A stretch of 64,000 bases of DNA, taken from NCBI RefSeq assembly GCF_000242435.1, contig NZ_JH591187.1, positions 594,291-658,290 on the forward strand. Direction: 5' to 3'. Position numbers and translations under genes: made by a program. Below the pieces are notes generated by a model, which made no database searches, was not told the origin of the DNA, and saw only the letters and a program-made list of their open reading frames with translations. Origin of the DNA: Dialister succinatiphilus YIT 11850. Its GTDB lineage: Bacteria; Bacillota; Negativicutes; Veillonellales; Dialisteraceae. Positions 660-45,538 of the stretch are shown here, one piece after another. Position 1 is the stretch's first letter. The number at the start of each line of letters is the position of its first letter.

Positions 660-1512
660 TTTTATGGAAAGGACACACGAAGACGTCATTATGGACAAGC
701 CCTGTCTGGCTTGAGGGTTGACGGCCCGATGGGCCGAGGGTGGCTGGTGGCTGGGGAGCCACGCCTCCCACTCGTCATCCTGAGTGAAACGAAGGAACGT
801 CGGTCGACCAATTGAAAGGAAGGCCCTTTTATGGGCAGGCTCCTTCCTGCCTCCCACCGTCATCCGGGGTCGGTCAGCCGACAATAGGAAGGCCCTTTTA
901 TGGGCAGGCTAAGGGCCAACTTTGGCCGACTCGCGCATTCTATGCAGAATACGCGCAGTAAGAATAGTAAGTGAGAGGAGTGCCGGTAAATACCAGTCGG
1001 CGGGAAGTGTGCTTTCCTGTATTCCCACAGGGGCCTGCGCCTTATGGACAAGCCCTGTCGGGCTTGAGGGTTCAGGTGCCTTTCGGCGCCCCACTTGGAG
1101 GTCCTATGCAGGACCTCCACAGGGGCACTATAACCCGTGCTTACTGTAGGGCGAGGAAATGCACCCCTTTTGGTGGCTGGCGCCACCACCTTCCCCCCGG
1201 CGGGGGGACTTTATTCTTCGCTATGCGTTAGCTTTATTCTTCCCCCGCTTGCGGGGGAAGTCCGGCGTACCCGGATAAGGGGGAGGCGAGCGCAGCGAGC
1301 CAATCAGCAGAATGCTTATTACGTCCTATGACACAGAAAGGCAAATCTCGTAACGCTGACTTCATACTCATCGCCCGTAAGGGCGATACCATAACCCTCG
1401 GCCTGAAAGGCCGTCAAACTTAAGAACCCTTGGGCCGAAGGCCCATCCATCCTAAGAACCTTTCTCTCTGAACCAGCCTGCCGAAGGCCGGTCTAACTTA
1501 AGAACCCTTTTT
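660..1512. repeat. Composite intergenic repeat, copy A
   Basis: This gene-free stretch is built from modules that recur in other gaps. In order: two hairpins in the form GAC-stem-GAGGGTT (about 672-725); a CATCCTGAG-type module (774-805); a hairpin with a 4-base loop at 932-955; a piece shared with 19.1 and 28.5 kb (953-1017); a hairpin GGAGGTCCT/AGGACCTCC at 1097-1118; a GGTGGC/GCCACC hairpin near 1176; a block starting CCCCCGC near 1245; and a chain of hairpins at 1370-1387, 1399-1413 and 1431-1445 joined by CTTAAGAACC linkers. The chain ends about 20 bases before the start of the U32 gene, so it would form that gene's leader if transcribed. No convincing ORF was found. Confidence 0.8.
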
Positions 1513-6295: not shown

Positions 6296-6835
6296 TTGGA
6301 CAAGCCCCTTTTGGGGCTTGAGGGTTCAAAAGGTCCAGAGTGTTCAAAGGGGAGGCGAGAAGAAATTAAGGCAACATCGGTCGTTGGATGGCCCCTTGAC
6401 TCCTGTCATTCTGAACGCAGTGAAGAATCTCGGTACGTGGCAAATATGAAGCCATAGGAATTCATGCAGGGGCCTGGTACCTGGAGGACACTTCCTGCCG
6501 ACTGGTATTTACCGGCATTCCTCTCACTTACTATTCTTACCAAGATCCTTCGCTTCGCTCAGGCTGACGGTGGGAGGCGGGAAGAAATCGAGGCAGCACC
6601 GGTCATGGGATGGCCCCTTGACTCCTGTCATTCTGAACGCAGGGAAGAATCTCGGTGCGTGGCAAATATGAAGCCATAGGAATTCATGCAGGGGCCTGGT
6701 ACCTGAAGCACACTTCCCGCCGACTGGTATTTAGCAGCGTTTCCCCTACTTACTGTTCTTACCGAGATCCTTCGTTTCACTCAGGATGACGAGTGGGAGG
6801 CGGGAAGGAGCCTGCCCACAAAAGGTCTTTCCTAT
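6296..6835. repeat. Composite intergenic repeat, copy B (two tandem module sets)
   Basis: Directly after mutS2 comes a hairpin with arms CAAGCCCC/GGGGCTTG and the GAGGGTT tail. It is followed by two roughly 235-bp units in tandem (about 6400-6630 and 6630-6830). Each holds a CATTCTGAACGCAG module, a GCAGGGGCCTGGTACCTG block, a CCGACTGGTATTTA block and an inverted GATCCTTCGCTT module. The same blocks occur in the opposite orientation at 19.08-19.31 kb. The first hairpin lacks a U-run but could still act as the mutS2 transcript end. Confidence 0.8.
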
Positions 6836-11208: not shown

Positions 11209-12684
11209 GTGGCAGGCGTAGAAACCTGTTCACAGGATGCCAAAGCCCGCTTAAGGGAACGGGAGCTTCTCCTTTGCCGCATGGTGCCGCTGGTGGAAAA
11301 CAATTTCAACTACTGTGAGCTGGGCCCCCGGAGTACAGGAAAATCCCATCTCAATAAGGAAGTGTCGCCGAACAGTATCCTTGTATCCGGCGGTCAGACC
11401 ACGGTGGCGAATCTTTTCTATAATATGGCCAGTAAGCAGATAGGCCTGGTGGGCCTGTGGGACTGCGTGGCCTTCGATGAGGTGGCGGGCATCCATTTCA
11501 AGGACCACGATGGCATTCAGATCATGAAGGACTATATGGCCTCCGGTTCCTTCTCCCGGGGCAAGGAGGAAAAGTCTGCCTCGGCGTCCATGGTTTTCGT
11601 AGGGAATATCAACCAGAGCGTGGAGTCCCTGCTAAAGACGTCCAGCCTTTTTGCCCCCTTCCCTCCGGAAATGGGGGAGGACACAGCCTTTCTGGACCGT
11701 ATGCACTGCTATGTGCCGGGTTGGGAAATATCCAAATTTCGGCCAGAACATTTCACCGACAGTTACGGCTTCATCACCGACTACCTGGCGGAGGTGATGC
11801 GGGAGCTTCGGAAAGTGGAACTGGGCGATGAAATGGACCGGTATTTTCACCTTGGCAGCAACCTGAACCAGCGCGACACTATCGCTGTAAGAAAGATGGT
11901 GGACGGCCTCATGAAGCTCATGTATCCCGACGGCCGTTTCACAAAGGATGAAGTGGAGAATATACTGAAACTATCTCTGGAAATGCGGCGCCGCGTCAAG
12001 GAACAGCTGAAGAAAATCGGGGGCATGGAATTCTACGATGTAAATTTCTCTTACATTGACAACGACAGCTTTGAAGAAAAGTACGTCAGCGTGCCGGAGC
12101 AGGGGAGCGGCAGCCTCATCCCCGACGGTATAGTAAGCCCCGGACAGGTCTACACCATCGGCACCTCCGCCGACGGCCGCATAGGCTGCTACCGTCTGGA
12201 ATCCCAGATACTTGAGGGAAACGGGAAATTTGAAAAGACAGGCCTTGGCAGCGGCCACGAAGCCAAAGAAGCGGCCAATACCGCCTTCAACTACCTCAAA
12301 GCTAATGGAAAGCGTATCAGCGGTGCCATTTCCACGGACACCAAAAACTTTATCATCAATTACCAGGACCTGAACGGCATAGGCATGACCAGCACCCTGA
12401 CCCTGCCCACACTGATTTCCCTTTCCTCCATCGCTTTGGGAAAACCGGTCATCAGCTCCGCCGCCGTCATAGGCGAAATCAGCATAGGCGGCTCCATCAC
12501 CCGCCCCGAAAACCTGGCGGACATGCTGCAGGTGGCTTTAAACAGCGGCGCCAGAAAAATCATCCTCCCCATTACCAGCGCCGCCGATCTTTCCACGGTA
12601 CCGCCGGAACTTATAGGCAGTTTCTCCCTGGTGTTTTATAAGACAGCGGAAGACGCGGTGTATAAAGCACTGGGCGTGGAATAG
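11209..12684 (+). CDS. BrxL-like AAA+ protein with Lon-type C-terminal domain, N-terminally truncated
   Basis: A 491-aa protein that matches the BREX protein BrxL from about residue 12 onward: RMVPLVENNFNYCELGPRS, Walker A GPRSTGKS (39-46), Walker B with VAFDEV, the FVGNINQS segment, and a C-terminal Lon-like domain (about 340-491) containing GEISIGGSI and ILPITSAADL. Full-length BrxL is close to 690 aa, so about 200 N-terminal residues are missing. GTG 11209 has no convincing ribosome-binding site, and a stop lies in frame at 11182. By eye, the Lon catalytic lysine position is not occupied, which agrees with reports that BrxL acts on DNA rather than as a protease. No other BREX gene is present, so this is probably a decaying orphan; a functional solo protein is the alternative. 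Confidence 0.8.
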   Translation: MAGVETCSQDAKARLRERELLLCRMVPLVENNFNYCELGPRSTGKSHLNKEVSPNSILVSGGQTTVANLFYNMASKQIGLVGLWDCVAFDEVAGIHFKDHDGIQIMKDYMASGSFSRGKEEKSASASMVFVGNINQSVESLLKTSSLFAPFPPEMGEDTAFLDRMHCYVPGWEISKFRPEHFTDSYGFITDYLAEVMRELRKVELGDEMDRYFHLGSNLNQRDTIAVRKMVDGLMKLMYPDGRFTKDEVENILKLSLEMRRRVKEQLKKIGGMEFYDVNFSYIDNDSFEEKYVSVPEQGSGSLIPDGIVSPGQVYTIGTSADGRIGCYRLESQILEGNGKFEKTGLGSGHEAKEAANTAFNYLKANGKRISGAISTDTKNFIINYQDLNGIGMTSTLTLPTLISLSSIALGKPVISSAAVIGEISIGGSITRPENLADMLQVALNSGARKIILPITSAADLSTVPPELIGSFSLVFYKTAEDAVYKALGVE

Positions 12685-12844: not shown

Positions 12845-13253
12845 TTATAGAAGTACCTCCAGATATTGACGGATGAATGTGTCCACATGGAAAAGGGGAG
12901 CGTAGGTCATGAGCCGGTTCAGGTCCTTGTCGGGGCGGGATATGTAATTTTTAAGGGCGGCCTGTAAATCCTGAATTTCAAAGGAGCTGCGGCTTCTGAC
13001 CAGGTCGCAGATGGTTCTTTCAAGGTCGTAAACAGGTATGAGGTGGTTAAGGAAGCACTGATTAATTTATAGAGCTTTCTTTTATAAGAATTTTTATGCA
13101 CTGTTTCGTCATGAGCTTCCTTAAATAGCTCGCTATTCGCGTCAGCCCATTCCTCGCATTGCATAAAAATTCAAGAATAAAAGCAAACAATGATTTAATC
13201 AGCGCTTCCTTAAAGGAGTTCCTGTATTCCATGCGTCCCAGGGATAGGAGGTC
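12845..13253 (-). pseudogene. AbiEi-family antitoxin remnant, interrupted by a MITE
   Basis: Read on the minus strand, the part ending at 12845 gives VYDLERTICDLVRSRSSF and finishes with IRQYLEVLL, the typical C-terminus of AbiEi-type antitoxins (type IV toxin-antitoxin systems, phage-abortive infection). A 159-bp MITE (13051-13209) splits the frame. Removing the MITE and one TTAA copy restores a continuous reading MEYRNSFNHLIPVYDLERT, which shows that the insertion was into this gene. Upstream of 13253 the frame is closed by a stop, and the DNA-binding N-terminal domain is missing, so the gene was already or is now broken. No AbiEii toxin gene follows; the stretch 12751-12844 has no frame of note. 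Confidence 0.7.
13051..13209. mobile_element. 159-bp MITE with TTAA target duplication
   Basis: The ends are inverted: GGAAGCACTGATTAA at the left and its near-complement TTAATCAGCGCTTCC at the right. A second paired block occurs further in (ATTTTTATGCA near 13090 and TGCATAAAAAT near 13160). TTAA is duplicated directly at both borders (13047-13050 and 13210-13213). The element is too short to encode a transposase, so it needs one in trans. The TIR start and the 4-base target recall IS5-type elements, but that is a guess. No second copy was seen in the window. Confidence 0.8.
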
Positions 13254-14599: not shown

Positions 14600-15290
14600 A
14601 AACTGGATGGACACGCCCTGCGGGCGTGAGGGTTGACGGCCCGCTGGGCCGAGGGTTGCTAGTGGCTAGTGGCTGGTGGCTGGGAAAATCAGCCACGGTG
14701 CAAACCTTCCCGCTGACTGGTATTTAGTAGCGTTTCCCCTACTTACTGTTCTTACCAAGATCCTTCGCTTTGTGGAGACCCTGCAGAGGGTCTCCAAGTC
14801 AGCCGAAGTTGGCCCGAGAAGAACGATGGTGAGTTTCATTGGTATGTTTACCCTCGTACACCCTTTTGCCACTACGTGGCATTTCCCCTCAAGGGGAAAC
14901 GAGAAATTCAGAGGGGCCTTCCGATTGTCGGCTGACCGACCCTAGATGAGGATGAGGGCGGGAAGGTAGTCCCGTAACGCTGACTTTATAAGCATTGCCG
15001 CAGAGCGGCAATCCGCAACCCTCGGGGCCAAAGGCCCCGTCAAACTTAAGAACCCTTGGGCCCGAAAGGGCCCATCAATCCTAAGAACCTTTTTCCACAA
15101 CCCTTCTACACAACCTGCCGACGTAGTCGGCCCCAACCAGCGGCGCCGGCCGCGCCCCCTTTATACTGCGGCGAAGCCGCCACCACAACCTTCAGCCCGA
15201 AGGGCTGTCAAACTTAAGAACCTTCCGGCCACAGCCGGTCAATCTTAAGAACCTTCCCCGCCGAACCCTTCCGCTCCCGCAGGCCGTGTC
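14600..15290. repeat. Composite intergenic repeat, copy C, with long hairpin chain
   Basis: This begins with hairpins ACGCCC/GGGCGT and CGGCCC/GGGCCG in the GAC-stem-GAGGGTT form. A heptamer run of GCTAGTG/GCTGGTG units (14647-14675), a CTGACTGGTATTTAG module and a 9-bp stem hairpin GGAGACCCT/AGGGTCTCC (14774-14795) follow. The second half is a hairpin chain: ATTGCCGC/GCGGCAAT (14994-15012), CGGGGCC/GGCCCCG (15023-15039), TGGGCCC/GGGCCCA (15057-15074), GCCGAC/GTCGGC, GCGGC/GCCGC, AGCCC/GGGCT and CCGGC/GCCGG. Several are joined by GTCAAACTTAAGAACC-like linkers. The chain ends just before the M24 peptidase promoter. No ORF is supported. Confidence 0.8.
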
Positions 15291-15298
15291 AAAAAATC

Positions 15299-15327
15299 TA
15301 GACAAAAGGCCCAAGATACTGTATGAT
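15299..15327 (+). promoter_or_regulatory. Promoter for the M24 peptidase / efp cluster
   Basis: TAGACA (15299-15304), a 17-base spacer and TATGAT (15322-15327). Each element matches 5 of 6 consensus bases. It lies immediately after hairpin chain C. Confidence 0.65.
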
Positions 15328-16427: not shown

Positions 16428-16988
16428 ATGATTTCTAGTAATGATTTACGTCCCGGTATTACCGTTGAACTGGATGGCCAGGTTTGGCAGTGCGTTGAAT
16501 TTCTGCATGTAAAACCGGGCAAAGGGGCCGCTTTCGTACGTGCCAAGCTGAAAAACCTGCAGAATGGTTCCGTAGTGGAACGTAAATTCAATGCAGGCAT
16601 TAAGCTGCAGCCCGCAACAGTAGAACGCAAACCTATGCAGTATCTTTACGAAGCTGATGGCTCCTACTGCTTTATGGATACAGAAACTTATGAACAGATC
16701 ATGCTTAACAAGGAACAGCTGGGTGACAAGATCAACTTCCTGAAGGAAGAAATGGAATGCACCGTCATGTTCTTCAACGGCAACATCATCGGCGTAGATA
16801 TTCCGAATTCCGTAGAACTGAAGGTCGTTGAAACTGAACCCGGCATCCGCGGCGATACAGCAACCGGCGGCTCCAAACCGGCTAAACTGGAAACAGGCTA
16901 TACCGTTTCTGTTCCGCTGTTCATTAACGAAGGAGAAGTTCTCCGCATCGATACCCGTACCGGCGCATACATTGAACGTGTAAAATAA
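16428..16988 (+). CDS. efp: Translation elongation factor P
   Basis: A 186-aa protein of normal EF-P length with three beta-barrel domains. It relieves ribosome stalling at polyproline. The domain I loop reads KPGKGAAF, with Lys32 at the tip where EF-P is modified in many bacteria. The C-terminus has the conserved GDTATGG block and the closing [22 protein letters not shown] stands 8 bases before the ATG. It shares a transcript with the upstream M24 peptidase and the downstream Asp23-type genes. Confidence 0.97.
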
Positions 16989-17000
16989 TCCGGTCATCCT

Positions 17001-17366
17001 ATGGAAACGGTATCTCAGGAAAATGATCTGGGAAAGGTGCGCCTGACGGACCGGGTGATTGCGATCACCGCCAGGGCGGCAGCGCTGACCGTTCCGGGCA
17101 TTGCAGGCATGGGGGAAACTTTTCTCCAGAGCCTTTCTTCCGTAATGTCCGACAAGGATACCGATGGCGTCCATGTAGGATTCAAGGACGGCGCTGTGGA
17201 GGTAGATCTCTATGTCTGCGTTCGTCACGGGATGCGGATTCCTGCGGTGGCTTTGAAGCTGCAGGAAACGGTGAAAGAAGCGTTGTCTGACTCTCTGGGT
17301 ATCCGGGTATCTGCGGTGAATGTGAATGTGTCCCAGGTTATTTTTGATAAGGATAAAGCAAAATGA
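17001..17366 (+). CDS. Asp23/Gls24 family envelope-stress protein
   Basis: A 121-aa protein with the Asp23/Gls24 (DUF322) pattern: RVIAITARAAALTVPGIAGM near the N-terminus, GVHVGFKDGAVEVDLYV in the middle and VNVNVSQVIF at the end. It is a cytoplasmic protein associated with membrane or envelope stress in Gram-positives. It overlaps the next gene by 4 bases and sits between efp and nusB, where this family is usually found in Bacillota. The ATG lies 12 bases after the efp stop, with only a weak ribosome-binding site. Confidence 0.88.
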   Translation: METVSQENDLGKVRLTDRVIAITARAAALTVPGIAGMGETFLQSLSSVMSDKDTDGVHVGFKDGAVEVDLYVCVRHGMRIPAVALKLQETVKEALSDSLGIRVSAVNVNVSQVIFDKDKAK

Positions 17367-19049: not shown

Positions 19050-19428
19050 GGGTTGCTGGCGGCTAGTGGCTGGGGAGCCCCGCCTCCCACTCGTCATCCT
19101 GAGCAAAGCGAAGGATCTCGGTAAGAATAGTAAGTGAGAGGAGTACCGGTAAATACCAGTCGGCGGGAAGTGTGCTTCAGGTACCAGGCCCCTGCATGAA
19201 TTCCAATGACGTCATCCTCGCCACGCACCGAGATTCTTCACTGCGTTCAGAATGACAGGAGTCAAGGGGCCATCCCATGACCGGTGCTTGCTCAATTTCT
19301 TCCCGCCTCCCACCTTCCCCTTGAGCGAAGCACACAACCCTTCTACACAACCCGCCGCCGTCAGGCGGCCATAACCTTCGGCCCGTAGGGCCGTCCACCC
19401 TCACGCCCAAAGGGCGTGTCATAAAACT
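19050..19428. repeat. Composite intergenic repeat, copy D
   Basis: The gap between the Kae1-like gene and xseA consists of a GGCTAGTGGCTGGGG run, a CATCCTGAGCAAAGCGAAGG module (19094 on), a TACCGGTAAATACCAGTCGG block, an inverted CATTCTGAACGC-type module (about 19235) and a hairpin chain. The chain has GCCGCC/GGCGGC, CGGCCC/GGGCCG and ACGCCC/GGGCGT. The last hairpin ends about 9 bases before the xseA ATG and occupies the place of a ribosome-binding site. Confidence 0.8.
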
Positions 19429-21587: not shown

Positions 21588-22438
21588 ACAAGCGCCTTAT
21601 GGCGCGGTCGGGACCGGGATCGGTGCGGTGCTTGCCGGTATTCCCGTAGGTTGACGCGGCTTCGCCGCGAGGGTTGATGGCGCCGCCGGGCCTTTGGCCC
21701 TGGGCGCCAAGGGTTCTGTCCGGGACTGGCTGACGCCTTCCGGACGGGTTGAGGGCTCCCGCCCTAGGGAGTTATATAGTACTGTGGAGGTCCTGCATAG
21801 GATCTCCAAGTCAGCCAAAGTAGGCCCTTAGCCTGCCCATTAAAGGGCTTACCTATTGGTTGGCTGACCGTGCCCGCTGGCGAGGTACGGCGCCTTCGGC
21901 GCCATTTCTTATGCCGCCTTTGGCGGCTAAAACCATACAACCGCCCTGCGGGCGTTGGAAATGCATCCCCCTTTGGTGGCTGGCGCCACCACCTTCCCCC
22001 CACTTCGTGGTGGGACTATGGGTACTTAGCCATGGAGCCATGTCTCTACAGGAAAGCATAGAAATCTATTCTGCCCCCTGAATAGGGGTGGCAAGGGAAC
22101 ACGATTCGTAAGGAAGCGAAGCGACCTGAGAATCGTGTGACACGCTTTCCCGTGGAGAAGTCCGGCGCAGCCCGGAAAGGGGGTGGCGAGCCAGTCAGCA
22201 GAATGTTTTTCATGCTATATGACTCATAAAGCCAATTCCGTAACGCTGGCTTTATACTCATCGCCCGATAGGGCGATACCACAACCCTCGGCCTGAAAGG
22301 CCGTCAAATTTAAGAACCCTTGGGCCTGAAAGGGCCCATCAATCCTAAGAACCTTTCCCTTCACAACCCGCCGCCGTGAGGCGGCCACAACCCTCGGGCG
22401 AAAGGCCCGTCAACCCTCACACCGCAGGTGTGTTAATT
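21588..22438. repeat. Composite intergenic repeat, copy E
   Basis: An 850-bp gap filled by repeat modules in the same order as copy G, with one addition. They are: a GGGACC/GGGATC run, hairpin CGCGGC/GCCGCG, GGCGCC-type hairpin, CTGTCCGGGACTGGCTGACG block, hairpin GGAGGTCCT/AGGATCTCC (21786-21807), GGCGCCTTCGGCGCC, GGTGGC/GCCACC hairpin, CAGGAAAGCATAGA block, and arms ACACGATTC/GAATCGTGT 22 bases apart (22099-22138). It ends in a hairpin chain: ATCGCCC/GGGCGAT, CGGCCT/AGGCCG, TGGGCC/GGCCCA, GCCGCC/GGCGGC and ACACC/GGTGT. The chain leads directly into tlyA. No gene was found. Confidence 0.8.
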
Positions 22439-22457
22439 TTCAAAAAGAGGTTTCACA

Positions 22458-25407: not shown

Positions 25408-26460
25408 TGCTCTGCGGAGGGCCTAGGTCGGGATCGGGACGGTGCTTTCCAGTATTCCCGAAGGTTGATGTGCACATCCTGCATAGGATGTGCAAGTCGG
25501 CCGACCGTGGTCTTTCGCCGCGAGGGTTGATGGCGCCGCCGGGCCTCAGGCCCTGGGCGCCAAGGGTTCTGTCCGGGACTGGCTGACGCCTCCCGGACGG
25601 GCTCCGGGCTCCCGCCCTCGGGAGTTATATAGTATCGCTGCGCTGGCGAGGTACGGCGCCTTCGGCGCCATTTCTTATGCCGCCTTTGGCGGCGAAAACC
25701 TTTACAACCGCCCTGTCGGGCGTCGGAAATGCAATCCCCCTTTGGTGGCTGGCGCCACCACCTTTCCCCCGCAGTTCGGTGGGGCGGCAAAAGGAAAGCG
25801 TCTTAATGGGCAGGCTAGGCGCCTTACTTCGCCCCACTTGTAGGTCCTATGCAGGACCTCCACAGGGGCACTATGGATGCTTAGCAATGGAGCCATGTCT
25901 CTACAGGAAAGCATAGAGCGATTTATTCTGTCCCCCGGATGGGGTGGCAAGGGAACACGATTCGTAAGGGAGCAAAGCGACCTGAGAATCGTGTGACACG
26001 CTTTCCCGTGGAGAAAGTCCGGCGCAGCCGGATAAGGGGGAGCCGCGTAGCGGCTAATCACCAGAATGCCAATCAAGCCATATGACACTGAAAGTAAATC
26101 CCGTAACGTTCTTGCGTCCCCTTTAGGGGAAGAGGGCCACGAAGTGGCGAAGGGTGTGCAAGCGAACTGGATTCATAGGGGAGCCCCGCGACCCGCGAAT
26201 CCAGTGAGACGCCATCCAGCGAAGTCGGTATGTGCGAGGGTAAGAATGATTATGATACTCGATGTGGACGTGACCGCCGAAAGGCGGCATTATAATACTT
26301 ATCGCCCGATAGGGCGATACCTCAACCCTCAGCGCCGCAGGCGCTGTCGCCCCCTGAGCGAAGCGAACACAACCCTTCTACACAACCTGCGGCGCCAGCC
26401 GCCATCACCACCCTTTGAACCCTCTGAACCTTTTGAACCCTCTGAACCCGGGCCGCTCTG
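25408..26460. repeat. Composite intergenic repeat, copy G (longest)
   Basis: A gap of about 1.05 kb between the rpmA terminator and the dapB leader. It is colinear with copy E: GGGATC run, hairpin GCACATCCT/AGGATGTGC (25472-25493), GGCGCC hairpin, CTGTCCGGGACTGGCTGACG block, GGCGCCTTCGGCGCC, GGTGGC/GCCACC hairpin, hairpin AGGTCCT/AGGACCT (25842-25859), CAGGAAAGCATAGA block, and arms ACACGATTC/GAATCGTGT (25955-25994). A second version of the last unit has arms ACTGGATTC/GAATCCAGT (26166-26205). Hairpins ATCGCCC/GGGCGAT and AGCGCC/GGCGCT and a nonamer array end it. No gene is supported. Confidence 0.8.
26411..26446. repeat. Nonanucleotide tandem array
   Basis: Four consecutive 9-mers CCCTTTGAA, CCCTCTGAA, CCTTTTGAA, CCCTCTGAA. 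A related inverted TTCAAAAGG/TTCAAAGG pair occurs at 6.33 kb after mutS2. Confidence 0.8.
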
Positions 26461-26518
26461 GCGTGTCCATAGGGTGTCCCAAATCTTTTCCATATATAAA
26501 AAATATATTTTTCCTGTA

Positions 26519-28479: not shown

Positions 28480-28640
28480 TCTTAAGATTGACAGGCTGCC
28501 TCCCACCGTCATCCTGAGCGAAGCGAAGGATCTCGGTAAGAATAGTATGTAGGAGAAACGCTACTAAATACCAGTGGGCGGGAAGGTTTGCTAGTGGCTG
28601 ATTTTCCCCAGCTGCCAGCTCACTAGCCCACCAGCTTACT
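28480..28640. repeat. Composite intergenic repeat, copy H
   Basis: Between asd and dapA lies a CATCCTGAGCGAAGCGAAGG module (28508 on), a TACTAAATACCAGTGGGCGG block and a short CACTAGCC/CACCAGCT octamer run (28617-28632). This is the simplest repeat copy and it sits inside what would otherwise be a tight biosynthetic operon. Confidence 0.75.
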
Positions 28641-28667
28641 AACATATATCAAAGGAGATACTAAAAA

Positions 28668-33024: not shown

Positions 33025-33240
33025 TGCTGACACGCCCTTTCGGGCGTGAGGGTTGACGGCCCTTCGGGCCGAAGTTTGGCGCGCCTATGGCGCGAGGGTT
33101 CTTGGGTTTGACAGCGGCTCCGCCGCTGAGGGTTCTGGTAGGTGCCCTTCAAAAGAAGGGGCGCCAGTTTGGAATAAACCTTTATAACCGGGCTTTCGCC
33201 CGGGGAAAACAGGCAAACCGCCCTGCGGGCGAAGGGGAAG
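33025..33240. repeat. Composite intergenic repeat, copy I (hairpin chain)
   Basis: Four hairpins follow the permease stop in the GAC-stem-GAGGGTT form: ACGCCC/GGGCGT, CGGCCC/GGGCCG, GCGCGCC/GGCGCG and CAGCGGC/GCCGCTG. The block GCGCCAGTTTGGAATAAACC and GGGAAAACAGGCA shared with copy F follows. The remainder to 33360 holds no recognised gene or repeat. Confidence 0.78.
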
Positions 33241-33370
33241 CCCCCTTTGGCGGCTGATTCACCGTAATACTGCCCTCGCTGATGAATCCAAAGTTATGAT
33301 TTTTGCCCGCTGCCCTCCATGTCAAGGCAGCTTCGAACCGCCATAGGTTTTATTAAAAAATTTCTCATCA

Positions 33371-33415
33371 AAAAACAGCTGTGAAAAATGTTTCATCATT
33401 TTCACAGCTGTTTTT
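33371..33415. terminator. Bidirectional terminator between pbuX and the P-type ATPase
   Basis: AACAGCTGTGAAAAATG pairs with CATTTTCACAGCTGTT (one bulge), flanked by A5 and T5. It serves the minus-strand ATPase gene and possibly also the plus-strand pbuX transcript. Confidence 0.88.
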
Positions 33416-33427
33416 ATTTGACTATTT

Positions 33428-33511
33428 TACCAGCTCACTAGTCCACTAGCCCACTAGTCCACCAGCTCACTAGCTCACTAGTCAACCAGCTCACTAGTCC
33501 ACCAGCTCACT
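33428..33511. repeat. Octanucleotide tandem array
   Basis: Ten consecutive 8-mers with consensus CACTAGTC or CACCAGCT. It ends 5 bases past the stop codon of the ATPase gene. Related runs occur at 28617-28632 and, on the other strand with period 7, at 14647-14675. Confidence 0.88.
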
Positions 33512-33516
33512 GCCAT

Positions 33517-36309
33517 TCATAGTTTCATCCGAAGGAGACGTACGGAGTAGAGGATGCAGAGGAGGGTGACGCCGGTGTCTGCAAACACGGCTACCCACAT
33601 ATTGGCATAGCCCAGAAGGCCCATAATCATAACGGCGATTTTGACGAAGAGGGCGAAGGCCACGTTCTGCCAGGCCGTGGAAATGACTTTTCGGGACAGT
33701 TTGATGGCCTGGGGGATGGCATGGACGTCGGAATTGAGGAAAACCACATCGGCTGCTTCAATGGCGGCGTCAGCGCCGCTTCCCATGGCGGCCCCTGCAT
33801 CAGCACCGGCAAGAACAGGGGCATCATTGATACCGTCTCCTACGAAGAGCACGGATCCTTCCTTCCTGCGCAGGTCTTTCATAATGGAAAGTTTATCCTG
33901 AGGAAGAAGGCCGGCATATACTTTAGAAATGCCTGCTTTTTCTGCCACGGCTTCTGCGCTTTTCCGGTTATCACCGGTCAGCATAATTGGCGTAACGCCC
34001 AATTTTTTGATTTCGCTGATGGAAGAAAAGGCATCTTCCTTCAGTGCATCAGATATGGTGATACATCCCAGAAGGCTTCCTTCCTTTGCCATATACACCA
34101 CGGTGCCTTCTCCATGAAGCGCATCCAGTTCCTGTTCGGAAATGCCGGCCTTTGCCATGAGGCTTCTGTTTCCGGCATAAACGGATTTCCCATCCACCAT
34201 GCCTTCCACACCAAGGCCAGCCGTTTCATGAAGATTTTCTACATGACACAGGGGGAGATCCTTTGCATGGGCAGCTTCAACAATGGATTTTCCAATGGGG
34301 TGGGTGGAGTAGATTTCACAGGAAGCGGCCAGGGAAAGAATGTCTTCTTTCTTATATTTCCCATAGGGAATGATGGAGCGGACTTTGAATTTTCCTTCTG
34401 TAATGGTGCCTGTTTTATCCATGACAGCTGCTTTGATTTTGGCAATCACTTCCATCACTGTGTCGCCCTTAAAGAGAATGCCATCTTTGGAAGCTCTTCC
34501 TATGCCTGCAAAGAAAGCCAGAGGAACGGAAATGACAAGGGCGCAGGGGCAGGAAATAACCAGGAAGGTGAGGGCAGTATAAATCCATTTTTCCCAGTCA
34601 GCGCCAAAGAAAAGGGGAGGGACCACAGCCGTCAGCAGGGCGGCTGCTACGACGGCGGGCGTATAAATTCTGGAAAAACGGGTAATGAAGCGGTCAATCT
34701 TCGGCTTACTGGCCACTGCATTTTCCATGGAATCCAGAATACGGCTGACCATGGATTCGGAAAGAATCTTCATGACCTGGATTTTAATGGTACCGGTCAT
34801 ATTCACGCAGCCCGAGTCTACATGGCTGCCTTCTTTGGCAGTTACTGGTTTCGGCTCGCCGGTAATAGCAGATGTATCGATTTCCGTACTTCCTTCCACA
34901 ATCAGTCCGTCCAGGGGGATACGGTCGCCGGGGCGGACCAGAAGGATATCGCCCACTCTGGCATCTTCCGCCGGAAGTGTTTCCATCTTATCCCCGGTTA
35001 TGCGGTGAACCACCTCGGGACGAAGGTCTACAGCCGCCATAATCTGGCTGCGGCTTCTGTCGCTGGCCAGGTCCTGCAGATATTCACCGATGCGGTAGAA
35101 GAACATGACGCCCACAGCTTCAGGATATTCCTGTATGCCGAAGGCTCCCAGGGTGGCAATGGTCATGAGGAAAGTTTCATCGAAGAATTCCCCATGGGTC
35201 ACATTTTTCAGGGCTGTCCATACAATGGGGCCGCCTAGAATAAGGTAGGAAATAAAGAACAGCATGTTTCCGTACAGTTCCGGCATAGCCAAAGCCTCGA
35301 CAGGATGATAGTGGAACAGCATGCCCAGAACGAAGAAAAAGCCGCCAATCCAAAGCTGTCCTTCTTCTGTGAATATTTTTTTGTAAAAAGGAATATCCTC
35401 TGTCTTTGGAGAAATTGATGTTTTTGGGGGACGTACTTTCTTTTTGATTTCCGTAGGCGATTCCACTTCATTGCACTTTTCTGTAAGCTCCGGAATCAGG
35501 CTGTCCGGATCCTCTGCGGTGAGTTTCATGGTTTTGGTGGCATAGGAAATGGAAGCGGAGAGAACACCGGGCTGGCGGTTAATCAGCTTTTCCAGCTTCA
35601 ATGCGCAGGCGGCGCAGTCCAGAGTAGGAATCTCATAAGTTTCCGTCCGGTAATTGGACTTATCTTTTGGCGGAACGATACCGACCGATTCATCTACGCT
35701 CCGGCATACAGCAAGGACTTCCTTCAAAAGGGTATCGGGGTCCTCTTTGGAAATGATGCGCAGTTCCTTATTGCGGAAGGAAATGGCCGCAAAGAAAACA
35801 GAAGGCATTTCCCGAATCTTCCCTTCCATTTTAGCGGCGCATTCCATGCAGTCCAGATGCTCCATATGGTAAAGGGAGCGGTGGTAGGTTTTTCCAAGGA
35901 AATCACAGCGGCAGCTGTCAAGGCTTTTCCCACAGATGTCGCAGTCCTCTTCCTCTACACAGGCAGAACAGTGGCAGTTCGGCATGTGGCCTTTTTGATG
36001 ATGGATTCCTTTATCATGGAAATGGCCGAAGGCCCGCCGTTCGTCGGCATCAATGGCCTTCTCGTCTTCCATAATATCTTTTTCGTTCGCTTTATACCTG
36101 GCCATTTCAGGATCATGGGAATGGTCGTGATGAAGGGGCTCTTCTTCATGGTGGTGGTCATGACCGCAGCAGCCATGATGATGGCTCTCCTCTCCTTCAT
36201 TCTCACTTCCGGAATCATCTTCATGAACATGACTTTCTTCGTGATGCTGGTGATGGCAGTGGCAGCAGCCGCAGTTATGGGCATGCACTGTTTCTTCTTT
36301 TTTATTCAT
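33517..36309 (-). CDS. Heavy-metal P1B-type ATPase with long His/Cys-rich N-terminus (Zn/Cd/Pb type)
   Basis: A 930-aa metal exporter, far longer than a typical ZntA/CadA (700-750). Residues 1-70 hold dozens of histidines with CGCCHCHH and HHHGCCGHDHHH runs. Residues about 110-133 are a Cys-rich cluster (CHCSACVEEEDCDICG). Two heavy-metal-associated domains have C154-C157 and C232-C235. The membrane core has C587-P-C589, the phosphorylated Asp631 in DKTGT and GDGINDAP. CPC with these domains indicates Zn, Cd or Pb export. AAGGAGGAAA precedes ATG. A single-gene transcript is likely. Confidence 0.95.
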   Translation of the reverse strand: MNKKEETVHAHNCGCCHCHHQHHEESHVHEDDSGSENEGEESHHHGCCGHDHHHEEEPLHHDHSHDPEMARYKANEKDIMEDEKAIDADERRAFGHFHDKGIHHQKGHMPNCHCSACVEEEDCDICGKSLDSCRCDFLGKTYHRSLYHMEHLDCMECAAKMEGKIREMPSVFFAAISFRNKELRIISKEDPDTLLKEVLAVCRSVDESVGIVPPKDKSNYRTETYEIPTLDCAACALKLEKLINRQPGVLSASISYATKTMKLTAEDPDSLIPELTEKCNEVESPTEIKKKVRPPKTSISPKTEDIPFYKKIFTEEGQLWIGGFFFVLGMLFHYHPVEALAMPELYGNMLFFISYLILGGPIVWTALKNVTHGEFFDETFLMTIATLGAFGIQEYPEAVGVMFFYRIGEYLQDLASDRSRSQIMAAVDLRPEVVHRITGDKMETLPAEDARVGDILLVRPGDRIPLDGLIVEGSTEIDTSAITGEPKPVTAKEGSHVDSGCVNMTGTIKIQVMKILSESMVSRILDSMENAVASKPKIDRFITRFSRIYTPAVVAAALLTAVVPPLFFGADWEKWIYTALTFLVISCPCALVISVPLAFFAGIGRASKDGILFKGDTVMEVIAKIKAAVMDKTGTITEGKFKVRSIIPYGKYKKEDILSLAASCEIYSTHPIGKSIVEAAHAKDLPLCHVENLHETAGLGVEGMVDGKSVYAGNRSLMAKAGISEQELDALHGEGTVVYMAKEGSLLGCITISDALKEDAFSSISEIKKLGVTPIMLTGDNRKSAEAVAEKAGISKVYAGLLPQDKLSIMKDLRRKEGSVLFVGDGINDAPVLAGADAGAAMGSGADAAIEAADVVFLNSDVHAIPQAIKLSRKVISTAWQNVAFALFVKIAVMIMGLLGYANMWVAVFADTGVTLLCILYSVRLLRMKL

Positions 36310-45348: not shown

Positions 45349-45368
45349 AGTACTCAAGTGAATAAAGA

Positions 45369-45470
45369 CTCATCAAGAGCAGCTGAGGGATTTGGCCCGG
45401 GGACGCTGCAGCAACCATTCCTGAAAAAGGAACCGGTGCTAATTCCATCAGCATATTGCTGGCAGATGAG
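45369..45470 (+). promoter_or_regulatory. SAM-I (S-box) riboswitch
   Basis: P1 arms CTCATC (45369-45374) and GATGAG (45465-45470) enclose the conserved core: AAGAGCAGCTGAGGGA near the 5' side, GCAGCAACC in the middle, and GGTGCTAATTCCATCAGC near the 3' side. SAM binding favours the terminator at 45477 and lowers metK expression. Confidence 0.95.
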
Positions 45471-45476
45471 AGGATA

Positions 45477-45503: not shown

Positions 45504-45538
45504 ATTATATTTTCACATTTCAAGTGAGGAGGACTTAT

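Follow-up and report, generated by a model that had tools for sequence, protein, structure and literature searches.

The window analysed here is the whole 64,000-nucleotide stretch at positions 594291-658290 of contig 1 (C1) in the 2.50-Mb assembly of Dialister succinatiphilus YIT 11850, hereafter the host genome. An earlier note had placed runs of short hairpins in six of its intergenic gaps, and re-reading of the sequence found all six chains at those positions with the stems, loops and linkers described. The six gaps hold 69 perfect hairpins (stem of at least 5 bp, loop of 3-5), as against a mean of 5.9 and a maximum of 12 in 50 mononucleotide shuffles, and the DNA fold of 14988-15260 gave a z of -8.2 on the plus strand and -6.5 on the other strand. 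Since the chains proved to be the right-hand ends of larger mosaics, whose left-hand ends carry inverted units as well, the window contains more than six such sites. The features are as follows, in window coordinates:

689-1503: mosaic 1, from its left inverted units to chain 1
689..736, minus strand: left inverted units of mosaic 1, TGGACA-hairpin-GAGGGTTGAC-CGGCCC/GGGCCG-AGGGT (repeat families D11 and D17)
1349..1367 (approximate), plus strand: single-copy polarity module CGTAACGCTGACTTCATA, preceding chain 1; orientation follows replication 59:2
1370..1503, plus strand: chain 1, four hairpin units, the last at 1471-1503
1370-1387, plus strand: chain 1 hairpin ATCGCCC/GGGCGAT
1399-1413, plus strand: chain 1 hairpin CGGCCT-gaa-AGGCCG
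1431-1445, plus strand: chain 1 hairpin TGGGCC/GGCCCA
14604-15260: mosaic ending in the chain from which this analysis started
14604..14657, minus strand: left inverted units of this mosaic, CACGCCC/GGGCGTG and CGGCCC/GGGCCG
14994..15012, plus strand: hairpin position A, ATTGCCGC-aga-GCGGCAAT
15017..15051, plus strand: unit B, AACCCT + CGGGGCC-aaa-GGCCCCG (15023-15039) + TCAAACTTAAGA; model R1, 45.2 bits
15051..15087, plus strand: unit C, AACCCT + TGGGCCC-gaaa-GGGCCCA + TCAATCCTAAGA
15117..15180, plus strand: hairpins between the chain halves, GCCGAC/GTCGGC, GCGGC/GCCGC and GCGGC/GCCGC
15187..15253, plus strand: second unit run, CAGCCC-gaa-GGGCTG and CCGGC-caca-GCCGG, TCAA.CTTAAGAACC after each
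15187-15219, plus strand: unit of the second run, covariance model 52.5 bits
19354..19418, plus strand: chain, GCCGCC/GGCGGC, CGGCCC/GGGCCG and CACGCCC/GGGCGTG
21589..22432, plus strand: complete mosaic (whole extent 21589-22442) with 14 hairpins; its chain units occupy 22260-22342 and 22370-22432
22260-22277, plus strand: hairpin of the ATCGCCC type
22289-22303, plus strand: hairpin CGGCCT-gaa-AGGCCG
25425-26470, plus strand: mosaic of 17 hairpins, chain at 26300-26402, ATCGCCC-type hairpin at 26300-26319
33026..33256, minus strand: inverse-form units in a gap between convergent genes (inverse form of the chain at 33031-33128), stems CACGCCC/GGGCGTG, CGGCCC/GGGCCG, CGCGCC/GGCGCG and CAGCGGC/GCCGCTG

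The window also contains an open frame for BrxL (BREX Lon-like; 11209-12684, 491 aa), whose match to its family is limited to the C-terminal two thirds and which is possibly the remnant of a BREX defence system, and a SAM riboswitch (RF00162, 82.7 bits) at 45367-45472, upstream of the gene at 45524. The gap after mutS2 (6350-6791) holds two 220-nt direct repeats that are 89% alike and contain the CTTCCCGCCGACTGGTATTTACC module of other mosaics. A CGTCATCCTGAGCGAAGCGAAGGATCT-type repeat, a motif of many unrelated bacteria, is embedded in mosaics at 929-1007, 19092-19170 and 28507-28585. A separate palindromic repeat, TTAAGGAAGCACTGATTAA ... TTAATCAGCGCTTCCTTAA, lies at 13047-13218, has ~30 BLAST matches in the sequence read and is also inserted inside hairpin chains of the relative Dialister sp. 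UBA1703. Tandem 8-mers with two variable positions (ACTAGTCC/ACCAGCTC/ACTAGCTC) occur at 33413-33524 and 28615-28645 and recur elsewhere in the genome.

The repeat unit consists of AACCCT, a perfect, G+C-rich hairpin of 5-8 bp with a loop of 3-4 bases (mostly GNA or GNNA), and GTCAA(ACTTAAG). Units are strung in chains, which combine with other palindromic modules to form intergenic mosaics of 300-1000 bp; these have a fixed polarity and inverted ends, the chains forming one end and inverted units the other. Read in its own polarity, a mosaic comprises inverted units (TTGAC-hairpin-GAGGGTT), other palindromic modules, the single-copy module CGTAACGCTGACTTTATA, hairpin A (ATCGCCC/GGGCGAT or ATTGCC../..GGCAAT), unit B (AACCCT-hairpin-GTCAAACTTAAG), unit C (AACCCT-hairpin-ATC(A/C)ATC(T/C)TAAG), further units and a tail of GAACCCTCT repeats. 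Since the left and right linkers are mutually reverse complementary, a mosaic as a whole forms an imperfect inverted repeat bearing side hairpins; mosaics also nest within one another. The conserved linkers described previously are present, with CTTAAG confined to two chain positions and the other units flanked by AACCCT/GTCAA or by other sequences.

The repeats are abundant in two genomes. Allowing at most one mismatch, the 16-base linker GTCAAACTTAAGAACC has 384 copies in the host genome (0 for the reversed control), 142 in Dialister sp. UBA1703 (G005), and 0 or 1 in each of 58 other relatives, the same-genus relatives including UBA1703 and UBA7295 (G003). Exact 16-mer matches in other phyla and in viral contigs had no hairpin context and were about as numerous as expected by chance. 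A covariance model of the unit, with which the earlier note had suggested searching related genomes, recovered units in bulk: at least 109 in the host genome, at least 78 in UBA1703 and at least 3 in one further relative (G004), these counts being lower bounds since 118 candidates were scored per genome, and none among the candidates scored in 57 other relatives. For gap statistics, ~1.2 of the 2.5 Mb of the host genome was read, with genes called from codon usage by a simple script, whose calls include at least one error within the window (16446-17228 was assigned to the minus strand, across elongation factor P). In this sequence all motif copies fall outside called genes, linker-bearing gaps account for 127 kb (~11%), and 123 such gaps contain 1518 hairpins versus 137 after an approximately dinucleotide-preserving shuffle. 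Our literature search found no description of Dialister intergenic repeats.

With more copies aligned, the compensated stem changes on which the earlier note had rested its case are statistically real. In an alignment of 43 distinct 33-nt units, 96.1% of the cells for the six stem pairs were standard (78.2% when shuffled), and the covariation score was 0.505 compared with 0.196 +/- 0.021 for shuffled alignments, none of 500 scoring as high; slid controls reached at most 0.088. Changes on both sides were seen in five of the six stem pairs, and intermediates exist, as in the stepwise series CCGGCCC/GGGCCGG, CCGGTCC/GGGCCGG, CCGGTCC/GGACCGG. Distinct perfect stems numbered 21 in the host genome and 16 in the part of UBA1703 read, and few stem types make up most copies. 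Since stem types and flanks move together (AGCATTG..CAATCCGC versus CTCATCG..CGATACCAC), many copies share one event, and ATCG/CGAT and ATTG/CAAT, likewise linked to flanks, are subfamilies rather than independent events. Moreover, we found arm chimeras joining two stem types (CGGGGC/AGGCCG and CGGGCCC/GGCCCCG) and a fusion of hairpins A and B at C1:441,619.

These observations do not sustain the claim that paired changes reflect selection on structure rather than simple copying. Since template switching can create and maintain hairpins, including compensated arms, without selection (PMC8794818), covariation alone does not prove selection, and part of the compensation is the descent of few stem types together with arm swapping or template switching. 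That stem pairing is kept by template-switch errors and arm swapping with no structural selection, the repeats spreading by whatever means, is a serious possibility to which we give somewhat less than even weight. The arm chimeras, the A/B fusion, the linkage of stem types to flanks and the demonstrated capacity of template switching speak for it, but it leaves the conserved linkers, the copy number and the replication polarity unexplained. It accounts for pairing only and can be combined with an explanation by mobile repeats. The natural series of perfect, mismatched, chimeric and compensated stems offers a means of testing selection against template-switch copying of complementarity.

The polarity of the mosaics follows replication, not gene orientation. 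When the leading strand was assigned to each gap from GC skew and position, counting assignable gaps only, the CTTAAG linker was leading-sense in 95 of 97 gaps. This held for every gene arrangement (leading:other, 51:2 in co-oriented, 14:0 in head-on, 18:0 in divergent and 12:0 in convergent gaps), and the independent single-copy module was leading-sense in 59 cases and not in 2. Among the model hits listed for contig 1, orientation was plus up to ~596 kb, minus from 753 kb to 1,203,795 and, with few exceptions, plus again from 1,217,481, on the other side of dnaA at 1,212,658; the sign of the GC skew changes at the same places. At ~650 kb of C1, the GC skew, the strand of the genes and the polarity of the repeats reverse together, which, with dnaA at 1.21 Mb, would make the replichores very unequal if this were the terminus; the order of the assembly or an inversion may play a part.

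Polarity that is near-absolute and flips at dnaA might be expected of a signal of chromosome polarity (KOPS-, Chi- or SMC-loading-like) maintained by selection. The repeats, however, scarcely occur in other Dialister or in any of the sampled relatives, their density along the host chromosome is very uneven, and their presence or absence differs between close species. Known polar signals, moreover, are 8-mers and are located in genes as well. We therefore consider such a signal highly improbable.

The same data bear on whether RNA or single-stranded DNA folds, both of which the earlier note had allowed. A structured RNA element (3' UTR, attenuator or small RNA) selected for base pairing would agree with the significant covariation, the T-G intermediates and the GNRA-like loops of part of the copies. 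Against it, polarity is independent of transcription, all 14 head-on and all 18 divergent gaps following replication, and divergent gaps are occupied as often (23%) as convergent (25%) and unidirectional (20%) ones. Single mismatches in distinct stems, a test of low power, comprised 10 G-T and 8 A-C with no wobble bias to one strand. Selection on RNA is unlikely, given that the repeats show no avoidance of divergent gaps and their mismatches no excess of G-U. In the finding's own region, an intrinsic-terminator test (hairpin plus T run) gave one site, on the minus strand, where shuffles give 1.5, and none on the plus strand of the chain; a promoter-like site (15299-15327) lies downstream of the chain, and an Rfam search of the window matched the SAM riboswitch and none of the repeats. 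We consider an RNA element highly improbable, and single-stranded DNA fits. Loops of the form C(GNA)G and C(GNNA)G have exceptional stability when made of DNA, which may be a lead; on the AACCCT..GTCAA side 219 of 322 hairpins have GNA or GNNA loops and 5 the complement. Since loop polarity follows flank orientation and not the fork, the loops alone do not prove which strand folds.

Comparison of aligned parts of the host genome and UBA1703 revealed 16 blocks with the motif in only one species, of which 15 had the predicted polarity; the sixteenth, a lone linker-regex match inside a 3.2-kb gene-bearing insertion, is probably due to chance. Polarity is therefore also a property of recent gains. 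UBA1703 is a draft (180 contigs, 94% complete), so that absence of a block there is weak evidence. Gaps of 27-60 bp in one species had counterparts of 460-810 bp in the other. At least three blocks had taken the place of the final codons and stop of the gene upstream; REPs likewise supply stop codons to genes (PMC3733652). Where an element was present in both species, modules had been exchanged in blocks, and one shared block was identical in surroundings that were not (orthologous pair L090). Occupied gaps looked rewritten along their whole length, and no clean empty site with a defined target or a target duplication was found between the two species.

The explanation that we favour, giving it about an even chance, is that the mosaics belong to a Dialister-specific, REP/REPIN-like family of non-autonomous mobile DNA, whose mobile unit may be the hairpin, the chain or the whole mosaic and which inserts via single-stranded DNA at the lagging-strand template. 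The combination of hairpin units with inverted ends, confinement to intergenic gaps and fork polarity is the pattern expected of hairpin recognition on that template. IS200/IS605 transposases use both hairpins and the lagging-strand template (PMC6006769), and recognition of single-stranded DNA hairpins has been inferred for REPINs (PMC3116915). A hairpin-recognising system acting there would yield fork-polar intergenic insertions regardless of genes, and chains would grow, shrink and swap stems by recombination in shared linkers and stems; the single-stranded intermediate, the acting enzyme and this route of stem diversification are what we infer. Since gene and replication orientation are separable and polarity follows the fork with very few exceptions in two species, spread on the lagging-strand template is directly testable. 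The failure to find a clean empty site, the lack of Y1/RAYT and TnpB matches in both genomes and the inverted block ends count against this explanation, and inverted ends would also suit an ordinary MITE.

A search for the enzyme detected no Y1/RAYT transposase (PF01797), with five control genomes positive, and no TnpB (PF07282) in the host genome or UBA1703, and no integron integrase (TIGR02249) over the cut-off in six genomes. Either a RAYT once present has disappeared, a loss described for some E. coli strains (PMC3733652), or another enzyme acts. The host genome has reverse transcriptase (PF00078) matches, three in identical copies of a group II intron and a fourth, weak one; none was found in UBA1703, and reverse transcriptase was rejected as a common mobiliser. 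At C1 476-477 kb and 548-549 kb (L202, L203), identical copies of this intron (RF02001, RT of 469 aa) abut a mosaic hairpin on its 3' side, e.g., AAGTCCGGCGCAGCCGGAT|intron. Mosaic hairpins seem to serve as targets for the intron, an independent hint that the hairpins form.

Alternatively, the mosaics could be MITEs of a conventional (DDE) transposon with replication-dependent insertion orientation, the hairpins being by-products of palindromic ends and nested insertion. Inverted mosaic ends and nesting are in keeping with this, as are the lack of matches to single-strand transposases (PF01797, PF07282) in the host genome and UBA1703 and the presence in the host of IS elements, read from the sequence as ISLre2-like and numbering six genes. 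The ISLre2-like transposase was rejected as the source, since its ends do not resemble the mosaic; no target duplication was seen, and a 33-nt unit with many alternative perfect stems is atypical of MITEs. We regard this origin as unlikely.

In a bolder reading, we suggest tentatively, and against the balance of our own expectation, that the family may represent a RAYT-independent class of single-stranded-DNA repeat with near-absolute fork polarity, in which a non-RAYT enzyme would recognise linkers and loops rather than stems.

REP-like repeats have been known for decades. The earlier note knew of no named bacterial family of this kind, which is half right: the REP/BIME/REPIN class (PMC3733652, PMC3116915), with its alternative complementary stems, is of this kind, but tags and transposase do not match. 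Other systems resemble the mosaics in part. Miniature elements derived from IS200/IS605 share the hairpins and a lagging-strand-template polarity (PMC6006769), comparable to the 95:2 and 59:2 ratios and the flip at dnaA in Dialister, but neither TnpA nor TnpB was found in the host, nor were defined ends or a target tetranucleotide. Integron attC arrays likewise consist of variable-sequence hairpins of the folded strand, arrayed with a single polarity, whereas no integrase over the cut-off (TIGR02249) was found in the six genomes searched, and the mosaics have no gene cassettes.

CGTC REPs, which have a CGTC/TGTC/CCTC tag, a stem of 8-9 bp starting with AT, a loop of 4-5 bases and a CCA tail (PMC3733652), are palindromes of the REP type that have no transposase of their own, as in alphaproteobacteria, Neisseria (dRS3) and Rickettsia (RPE-4/6). 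Hairpin A (ATCGCCC..GGGCGAT-ACCA) is reminiscent of them, a partial match in its AT start and ACCA. The Dialister flanks, however, are AACCCT..GTCAA or ACTC/AAGC and not CGTC, and stems (5-8 bp) and loops (3-4 bases) are shorter.

GTAG REPs, BIMEs and REPINs come closest, being short intergenic palindromes with hundreds of copies and alternative complementary stems (PMC3733652, PMC3116915), with inverted pairing, clusters, stop codons supplied to genes and inferred single-stranded DNA hairpin recognition; the mosaics have inverted ends, as a mobile inverted pair of the REPIN kind would, but no excision products were seen. In contrast, the Dialister flanks are AACCCT/GTCAA (TTGAC/AGGGTT on the other strand) with no GTAG (GTRG) 5' foot, no RAYT was detected in either Dialister host, and the chains run head-to-tail with fixed linkers of 15-19 nt and a polarity locked to replication. 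Classical REPs favour unidirectional and convergent gaps (PMC3733652), whereas the Dialister repeats do not avoid divergent ones. The family thus behaves like REPs, yet it does not carry their tag and no RAYT was detected with it; it is a real, species-group-specific, REP-like repeat family with an unusually strict replication polarity.
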